Part shown: positions 5,491 to 7,937 of the stretch, one piece after another | Position numbering within the stretch: position 1 is the stretch's first letter | How the letters are laid out: each line of letters begins with the position of its first letter | Assembly (NCBI GenBank): GCA_020201335.1 | Contig: JAIVGZ010000004.1 | Location: forward strand, 1-64,000 | Length of the DNA: 64,000 nt | Source: Natronospirales bacterium | GTDB taxonomy: Bacteria; Pseudomonadota; Gammaproteobacteria; Natronospirales; JAIVGZ01 | Direction: 5' to 3' | Made by a program: the position numbers and the translations under genes | The notes under the pieces: generated by a model | Database searches by the model: none | What the model was told of the DNA's origin: nothing | Seen by the model: the letters and a program-made list of their open reading frames with translations, nothing else

Positions 5491-6495
5491 ATGACACTTC
5501 GTTCCTGGACCGACAAAGATATTGCGCCCGGTGGCCTCGACGGGCTGTGTGTCGCGGTGTTCGGCTACGGCGCACAAGGACGCGCCCACGCGCTCAACCT
5601 GCGCGACTCCGGCGTCGAAGCCGTGGTCGCGTTGCGCGATGGCTCACCGCGAGGCGCGCGGGCCGCTGCGGACGGGATGACCGTGTGCGCACCGGCCGCC
5701 GCCGCACAGCGTGCGGACCTCGTGATGCTACTCGTACCTGATGACGCGCAACCTGCGCTGTACGAAGAAGTACTCGAAGGTGCGATGAAGCCGCAGGCCG
5801 CTCTGGTGTTTGCGCACGGTTTCAACATCCACTATCGCCGCATCAGCCCGCGTGCCGACCTCGATGTTCTGCTGGTAGCCCCGAAGGGGATTGGCGATCA
5901 GGTGCGCTCAACCTACGAGGCGGGCGCCGGCGTGCCGGGCCTTGTCGCAGTGCACCAGGACGCGAGCGGCGACGCACTCGCGCGCGCGCTCGCGTATGCC
6001 AGTGCGGTCGGGCACGGCCGTGCGGTGATACTCGGAACGACTTTCGCCGACGAGACCGAGACCGACCTGTTTGGCGAGCAGGCGGTGCTGTGCGGTGGGC
6101 TGACCGCGCTCGCGCAGGCCGGTTTCGATACGCTGGTCGAAGCCGGCTATCCACCGGAGCTCGCGTATTTCGAGTGCCTGCACGAGATCAAGTTAATCGC
6201 CGACCTGATGTACGCGCGCGGCATCGCCGGCATGCGTGAGTCAATCTCGACGACGGCGGCATACGGCGACTGCACGCGCGGCCCGCGCATCATCGACGCC
6301 GCCACGCGGGACACGATGCGGGCAATCCTAGCTGAGATTCGCTCCGGGGCGTTCGCCTCCGAACTCGCCGATGAGCTTGCCGCAGGGCGCCCGGCGCTGA
6401 CCCGCGCACAGGCTGAGGCCCGGGCCGGCGCGCTGGAAACGGTTGGTCGCGGGCTCCGCCGGAAGATGCCTTTTATTGGTGATGAATCGGAGTAG
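5491..6495 (+). CDS. ilvC: Ketol-acid reductoisomerase (somewhat divergent)
   Basis: VFGYGAQGRAHALNLRDSG, AHGFNIHY, ETETDLFGEQAVLCGG, YFECLHEIKLIADLMY. Confidence 0.9.
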   Translation: MTLRSWTDKDIAPGGLDGLCVAVFGYGAQGRAHALNLRDSGVEAVVALRDGSPRGARAAADGMTVCAPAAAAQRADLVMLLVPDDAQPALYEEVLEGAMKPQAALVFAHGFNIHYRRISPRADLDVLLVAPKGIGDQVRSTYEAGAGVPGLVAVHQDASGDALARALAYASAVGHGRAVILGTTFADETETDLFGEQAVLCGGLTALAQAGFDTLVEAGYPPELAYFECLHEIKLIADLMYARGIAGMRESISTTAAYGDCTRGPRIIDAATRDTMRAILAEIRSGAFASELADELAAGRPALTRAQAEARAGALETVGRGLRRKMPFIGDESE

Positions 6496-6530: not shown

Positions 6531-7124
6531 ATGCCCAGACAGACCCATCCAGGGCTCGCCCGCGAGGGCTGGCCCTTCATTACCGCGGCCGCGGTCGCGG
6601 GTGTCGTTGCATGGTTCATCAACCCCGAGTGGTCGGCGCCGTTCGTTGTCCTCGTCATCGTGTTCGCGATGAAGTTCCGGGACCCATCGCGGGAGGTGCC
6701 GCCGGAGCCGCTTGGAGTGGTCAGTCCGGTCGACGGCATCGTCGAGCTGGTCGAGACGACGCAGGATCCATGCCTCGGCCGCAACGCGATGCGCATACGC
6801 ATCCGCATCGCGCGCTTCGGTGCATACAGCGCGCGCGCTCCAGTTGAAGGCAAGCTGTTGGACTTCAAAGGCCAGCGCGGAATGCGGATCCAGACCGATG
6901 AGAAAGACGATGTCATCCTCATCCTCAACGAAGCACCGGCATTCGCACGCCCTCGCGCGCTGGTCGGCTATGGTTCGCGCGTCGGGCAGGGCCAGCGCTG
7001 CGCGGTGGTGCGTATGGCCCGCATCGCCGAGGTCTACCTGCCGGCGGGCGTACGCGTACAAGTGAAGCCGGGGCGCCGGGTGCTTGCGGGATCGGAGCTC
7101 TTGGCAACGCTAGTACACGATTAA
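6531..7124 (+). CDS. Phosphatidylserine decarboxylase-like protein lacking canonical catalytic residues
   Basis: HPGLAREGWPFI...FRDPSREVP...VVSPVDGIV...RAPVEGKL...GQRCAVVRMARIAEVYLP align with short-form Psd, but the pyruvoyl GS and DVH(V/S)NR His are replaced. Confidence 0.75.
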   Translation: MPRQTHPGLAREGWPFITAAAVAGVVAWFINPEWSAPFVVLVIVFAMKFRDPSREVPPEPLGVVSPVDGIVELVETTQDPCLGRNAMRIRIRIARFGAYSARAPVEGKLLDFKGQRGMRIQTDEKDDVILILNEAPAFARPRALVGYGSRVGQGQRCAVVRMARIAEVYLPAGVRVQVKPGRRVLAGSELLATLVHD

Positions 7125-7154
7125 TCGCGGTTCTAAACCGGTATGATTGGGGGC

Positions 7155-7937
7155 ATGCAGAACCCCGACGAACCTCAGGCGCAAGACGACACCGGCCCAC
7201 GCCGCGCGATCTACCTGCTGCCGAACCTGTTCACCACCGCAGCGATGTTCGCCGGCTTCTTCGCGATCATCGCGGCGATGGGTGGGCGCTTCTCCAGTGC
7301 CGCAATCGCAATCATCATCGCCGGCGTCCTCGACGGGCTCGACGGGCGCATCGCCCGGATGACCAACACGCAGAGCGATTTCGGCAAAGAATACGATTCG
7401 ATGTCGGACCTCGTTTCGTTCGGACTCGCGCCCGCGCTCGTCATGTACCAGTGGGCACTCGAGGGCATGGCGTCGTACGGCTGGCTATGGTCGAAGGTCG
7501 GTTGGTTGGCCGCGTTCTTCTACGCGGTCTGCGCAGCGATGCGCCTCGCGCGCTTCAATACGCAGGCAGGCGTCGTCGACCGCCGCTACTTCGTCGGCCT
7601 CGCGAGCCCGGCCGCCGCCGGCTTGCTGGCGACCTTCGTCTGGGTCGGCCACGACTTCGGTTTCGAAGGCAGCGACCTTGTGATACCGGCCTTGTTGTTC
7701 ACGGTGCTGGCCGGTGCGCTGATGGTCTCGCGCGTCAACTACTACAGCTTCAAGGACCTGAACCTCGGCCAGCGCGTGTCGTTTCCGATGCTGATCCTCG
7801 TACCTCTGGTCTTCATCCTGATCGCGTTGAACCCGCCGAAAGTGCTGTTCCTGATGGGGTTCAGCTATGTGGCATCCGGTCCGGCGATTGAACTCTGGCG
7901 CATTTACCGGCGCCGCCGGAGCGCGGGCGCGGCGTAA
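7155..7937 (+). CDS. pssA: CDP-diacylglycerol-serine O-phosphatidyltransferase
   Basis: RRAIYLLPNLFTTAAMFAGFFAI, VLDGLDGRIARMTNTQSDFGKEYDSMSDLVSFG; start may be 7143. Confidence 0.9.
   Translation: MQNPDEPQAQDDTGPRRAIYLLPNLFTTAAMFAGFFAIIAAMGGRFSSAAIAIIIAGVLDGLDGRIARMTNTQSDFGKEYDSMSDLVSFGLAPALVMYQWALEGMASYGWLWSKVGWLAAFFYAVCAAMRLARFNTQAGVVDRRYFVGLASPAAAGLLATFVWVGHDFGFEGSDLVIPALLFTVLAGALMVSRVNYYSFKDLNLGQRVSFPMLILVPLVFILIALNPPKVLFLMGFSYVASGPAIELWRIYRRRRSAGAA

Follow-up and report, generated by a model that had tools for sequence, protein, structure and literature searches.

The phosphatidylserine decarboxylase (Psd) family is already known, as is the concept of a dead homologue kept as a regulator. 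Self-cleavage of E. coli Psd uses D90/D142-H144-S254 (PMC7952604), and H144 mutants are unable to decarboxylate phosphatidylserine (PS) (PMC7952604). Searches of open-access papers found no description of a dead Psd that extends across a bacterial clade. Within that literature the terms 'phosphatidylserine decarboxylase' and 'pseudoenzyme' occur together in no one paper, and nothing relevant came from searches for proteins that are like or related to Psd. Here we examine PsdL, encoded in the window (the whole 64,000-nucleotide stretch of DNA that was analyzed). Judging from its sequence and those of its relatives, PsdL is very probably catalytically dead and kept by selection.

PsdL is a short-form Psd homologue between ilvC and pssA

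The PsdL open reading frame begins immediately 3' of an in-frame stop (6531-7124, + strand). The sequence-only reading had identified its product as a short-form Psd homologue, and the alignment together with matches to NF003680 and PF02666 bears this out. NF003680 matched with E=9.6e-32, yet the score of 110 bits is far from the 262-bit equivalog cut-off, and PF02666 scored 32 bits, just above its cut-off of 22. Both this above-cut-off match and the placement in the ilvC-psd-pssA gene order assign PsdL to the Psd superfamily (PF02666) by descent. The conserved gene context claimed earlier was verified by Pfam and NCBIfam matches of the neighbors, and the gap between the PsdL stop and pssA is 18 bases. 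The features of the locus are as follows.

5491..6495, + strand: ilvC, 5' neighbor of PsdL (PF07991, PF01450, NF004017)
6531..7124, + strand: PsdL, very probably dead short-form phosphatidylserine decarboxylase homologue, 197 aa (ORF, PF02666/NF003680)
6561..6674, + strand: two hydrophobic N-terminal helices, residues 11-30 and 32-48, predicted membrane anchor (AlphaFold2/DSSP; hydropathy 1.5-2.1)
6816..6836, + strand: FGAYSAR replacing FNVHxNR, with Tyr99 at the catalytic His (alignment with canonical short Psd)
6846..6911, + strand: signature part one, E106 and TDEKDD at 122-127, flanking the shortened segment (alignment conservation)
6972..6998, + strand: signature part two, GxRxGQGxR, residues 148-156 (alignment conservation)
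7017..7022, + strand: Ala163-Arg164 replacing the pyruvoyl-forming Gly-Ser (alignment with canonical short Psd)
7143..7937, + strand: pssA, type II phosphatidylserine synthase, 3' neighbor (PF01066; TIGR00473 at 110.3 bits, cut-off 107)

AlphaFold2 modeled PsdL from nine sequences as two N-terminal helices and a beta barrel (pLDDT 85, pTM 0.80). The best Foldseek match to the model was EIIA-Glc (1gpr, E=7.8e-6, TM 0.52), with weaker matches to M23 peptidases, and in the Foldseek viral library predicted giant-virus Psds matched at E=1.5e-3 to 9e-3. The model was closer to EIIA-Glc than to any solved Psd chain in this search. A sequence search of the PDB with PsdL alone found nothing, and one with the PsdL profile gave weak matches only, to E. 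coli Psd (E=0.05) and to EIIA-Glc. The likeness of the predicted model to EIIA-Glc is taken as a resemblance of fold and carries no claim of family.

PsdL lacks the catalytic residues of Psd

Alignment with canonical short Psd pairs FGSRVDVYLP with MARIAEVYLP of PsdL. The substitution of A-R for the canonical G-S pair and the absence of His from the active-site motif, both claimed from the sequence alone, are evident in this alignment at A163-R164 and at Tyr99. The active-site (substrate) segment between xPxEG and xxT has 14 residues in PsdL versus exactly 32 in 22/22 canonical proteins. The Asp of SPVDG is retained. Judged by sequence, PsdL has none of the three features of an active Psd, namely a Gly-Ser cleavage site, a catalytic His and a 32-residue segment.

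A Gly-Ser elsewhere in the protein, if it were the true cleavage site, would have contradicted the sequence-only reading. The sole one nearby is G148-S149 (YGSRVGQG). Because 81% of the dead relatives have Glu at the S149 position, G148-S149 is ruled out as a cleavage site that has moved.

The dead form is a single clade across Gammaproteobacteria

A profile built from seven relatives was used to search a class-wide sample of 369 Gammaproteobacteria genomes. It gave one match in each of 127/369 genomes, with the dead form in 105 (more than a quarter of the sample) and the canonical form in 22. Altogether 131 distinct proteins were read, 22 of them canonical and 109, including PsdL of the window, without the His/Gly-Ser pair. 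Counted by genome, the dead form numbers 108, 105 from the class sample and 3 from a search of the order. These genomes span 54 families and 75 genera; the canonical form occupies 12 other families, with zero overlap.

The catalytic His column holds Tyr, Phe or Trp in 92/109 dead proteins and His in 22/22 canonical ones. The two dead proteins with His at this column are both without Gly-Ser. Conversely, Gly-Ser is present in 12/109 dead proteins, each without His, and in 22/22 canonical proteins; L016:5986-6600, L034, L036, L047 and L059 are among the twelve. Since these twelve have Gly-Ser and no His, the sequences indicate that loss of His probably preceded loss of Gly-Ser. Substrate segments of the dead proteins vary from 14 to 44 residues and are mostly shortened, versus exactly 32 in the canonical proteins. 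The Ser column contains A, R, G, S, C, H, T, K and others, with no conserved nucleophile.

A tree was computed by quick search with SH-aLRT support after removal of the diagnostic columns. The dead and canonical sets fell on opposite sides of one branch (SH-aLRT 100), which answers the earlier question of whether the variant without His is a conserved clade: the 109 proteins form one. The tree was then extended with 15 proteins of the same class, taken as canonical, and 13 other-class proteins as outgroup, in which a simple pattern recognized an intact His motif in 11/15 and 12/13, respectively, and left the other five unmatched. The dead set still lay on one side and the outgroup on the canonical side. 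On this quick-search tree with SH-aLRT support, the dead clade is of single origin. Reading a part of the other-class matches turned up no dead form. A plasmid search for PsdL relatives gave only distant Psd, with <30% identity among the matches listed.

A separate long-form Psd accompanies the dead form

The search for a second, intact psd found a long-form Psd encoded separately, on a different contig of the window's genome (G000:C48:13877-14536, E=9.4e-61). Its SPVDG, DYHRIHMP and MGST motifs are intact. The dead gene is therefore not the sole Psd of the cell. Across genomes, a separate long Psd is present in 102/108 with the dead form versus 0/22 with the canonical short form (Fisher p ~1e-19, where the split tracks one tree branch and the genomes are not independent). 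YHRxH and Gly-Ser are kept in 21/21 long Psds read, the window's own and 20 from dead-form genomes. No long Psd was found in six dead-form draft genomes (G201, G224, G317, G289, G101 and G247). G224 and G317 belong to a single genus.

Selection has maintained the dead clade

Dead pairs with usable dS gave dN/dS values of 0.04-0.31 (Nei-Gojobori). The dead clade no longer holds constant 35 positions that are invariant in canonical proteins, His and Gly-Ser among them, while its conservation exceeds that of canonical proteins at 11 positions (P57, P60, L61, E106, D123, E124, D126, R150, G152, Q153 and G187). E106, D123, E124 and R150 occur all together in 107/109 dead versus 4/22 canonical proteins. 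In the dead clade R150 (99%), G152 (97%) and Q153 (94%) dominate positions that are weakly conserved in canonical proteins. Because four canonical proteins already have E106, D123, E124 and R150, the sequences suggest that the signature is older than the catalytic loss and was fixed afterwards.

Purifying selection and shared residues after catalytic loss, the marks of a pseudoenzyme under selection, are both found in the dead clade. The pattern is consistent with a function that was retained and altered, rather than with decay. The missing residues, the shortened segment, the separate intact Psd and the conserved clade also lend good support to the sequence-only reading of PsdL as a probable pseudoenzyme.

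PsdL is lost repeatedly and persists outside the operon

ilvC lies 5' of the short-form psd in 119/124 loci. Under a strict distance limit pssA was counted 3' of psd in 97 loci, and many of those missing from the count fail only through overlapping stop-to-stop frames. Open frames of 543-577 aa in a few genomes that could be taken for an IlvC-PsdL fusion were rejected as off-frame read-through over ilvC in GC-rich DNA.

In several of 20 inspected genomes without PsdL, pssA follows ilvC directly across a short gap that contains no remnant. In G002, from the same order as the window, ilvC adjoins pssA and PsdL is absent. About 15 sampled families, read by eye, hold genomes both with and without PsdL. 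These families and the remnant-free ilvC-pssA junctions indicate that PsdL has been lost repeatedly and is dispensable in some lineages.

Genome G178 (99% complete) has a window-like neighborhood of proS, PsdL, a UDG gene and a prfC-like gene from which ilvC and pssA are absent; both are encoded on other contigs (C12 and C39). PsdL sits there between proS and the UDG gene with its full signature. G178 (locus L200, G178:C10:96000-106000) also has two long-form Psd homologues. In genus g78 (G089 and G211; also L012) a different contig carries pssA, and the genes that follow PsdL are cvpA- and purF-like, named from sequence resemblance only. PsdL therefore persists without pssA co-transcription in G178 and in genus g78.

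PssA as a candidate partner

A type II PssA match was found in 356/369 class genomes, most of them without PsdL. Strict dependence of type II PssA on PsdL is thus rejected, and PssA has no general need of PsdL. In G215 (2.2 Mb, 99% complete), where the short Psd is canonical, the search for type II PssA gave no match at E<=1e-6.

PsdL had been suggested to be a regulatory or scaffold partner of PssA, and this idea fared unevenly. Gene order is conserved, as the suggestion would have it. A joint AlphaFold model, made as a fused PsdL-PssA read-through with TAA read as Gly and only two paired rows, reached pTM 0.55 with no confident interface. Comparison of PssA sequences found no residues specific to dead-Psd genomes, and lineages in which pssA has left the locus still retain PsdL. 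The PsdL/PssA distance correlation of 0.55 is expected from shared descent alone, and ancestry rather than function may account for the gene order. PssA is the first-choice partner because of the ancestral adjacency and because a type II PssA match is present in all dead-form genomes of the class sample, though the latter is weak support given that 356/369 genomes have such matches. We tentatively propose PssA as the partner of PsdL.

Possible functions of PsdL

The same dead version, of one origin and under selection, is present in more than a quarter of the sampled genomes, and therefore PsdL probably has a non-catalytic job. Taken loosely, as a dead accessory of the PS/PE branch, this job has about an even chance of being correctly named. 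A narrower role at the membrane, regulating type II PssA allosterically or serving as its PS-handover subunit, is possible but doubtful. On the favored reading, the operon ilvC-psd-pssA would have been present in an early gammaproteobacterial ancestor. Decarboxylation would have passed to a second, long-form Psd, freeing the short form from catalysis, and the short form would then have lost its His, its substrate segment and its Ser. What was kept may be a membrane-anchored barrel protein in which a non-catalytic contact was retained or refined, with E106, D123-E124-x-D126 and R150-x-G152-Q153 as the newly fixed residue set. PsdL would bind PssA, or PssA and its PS product, at the membrane, and this binding could set PS production or pass PS on.

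The main rival is that PsdL acts as a prozyme, which binds and activates or stabilizes the separate long-form Psd. The long Psd co-occurs in 102/108 genomes as a living homologue, and trypanosome AdoMetDC offers a precedent in another pyruvoyl decarboxylase (PMC5201418). However, six draft genomes, two from one genus, have PsdL and no long Psd found, the long psd and PsdL of the window's genome are on different contigs, and genomes with a long Psd and no PsdL match exist, five of them in the window's order. We consider this rival unlikely, and somewhat less likely again is a lipid-binding carrier or sensor that uses its former lipid face to hold PS or some other phospholipid and needs no specific enzyme partner. 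Such a carrier would agree with the retention of the predicted membrane anchor and barrel fold, and canonical Psd binds PS (PMC7952604), but most active-site residues are gone and the substrate segment, shortened in most cases, varies in length (14-44 versus exactly 32 residues).

The loss of catalytic positions and the traceless deletion of the gene in several lineages could also be explained by a neutral relic, a redundant short psd decaying inside an old operon. This is improbable in light of the dN/dS range of 0.04-0.31, the single old clade with open frames across 54 families, the signature in 107/109 dead proteins and the retention of PsdL in G178 and genus g78 after the operon broke up. 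Even less probable is a new enzyme whose active site has migrated or whose chemistry is different. The strictly conserved polar residues E106, D123, E124 and R150 could be catalytic, but four canonical Psds already have them and the Ser is not replaced by any conserved nucleophile. Least credible of all is that PsdL is still a decarboxylase, acting through another Ser or without a pyruvoyl group. G148-S149 is present, but the S149 position is Glu in 81% of relatives, PsdL has no His and the genome has a separate intact Psd.

The family models used here label the dead proteins phosphatidylserine decarboxylase, so PE synthesis is likely mis-assigned to the dead gene in many genomes. Control of PS/PE levels in bacteria is a poorly understood step, for which a pseudoenzyme spanning 54 families, with clean losses and retention outside the operon, constitutes a natural experiment. 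If PsdL does regulate PssA, it would be a previously unknown PS/PE control point in a large part of the Gammaproteobacteria, one that arose once a second Psd made the first redundant.

Comparison with known systems

PsdL resembles short-form Psd (PRK05305 / NF003680, PF02666) in length, N-terminal hydrophobic helices, ilvC-psd-pssA position and the RDPxRxxP, SPVDG, xPxEGK and YLP motifs. It differs in having no His, no Gly-Ser and a shortened substrate segment, in the release of 35 invariant residues, and in having its own signature and a second Psd alongside. EIIA-Glc is a barrel-fold protein that regulates other proteins through binding. Its barrel fold is like the one predicted for PsdL, but the two share 12-19% identity, at which homology is not established, and PsdL alone has a predicted membrane anchor. 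PanZ, the activator of PanD, is unrelated to PanD and is not a dead PanD, whereas PsdL is itself a Psd homologue. The role proposed for PsdL is nonetheless like that of PanZ, an accessory of a pyruvoyl decarboxylase pathway in some Gammaproteobacteria (PMC3496974, PMC4410942). Compared with the trypanosomatid AdoMetDC prozyme, PsdL is bacterial, has only a proposed partner and activating role and has a distant long-form Psd as the living enzyme; like the prozyme, it is a probable dead homologue of a pyruvoyl decarboxylase found beside an active one (PMC5201418).
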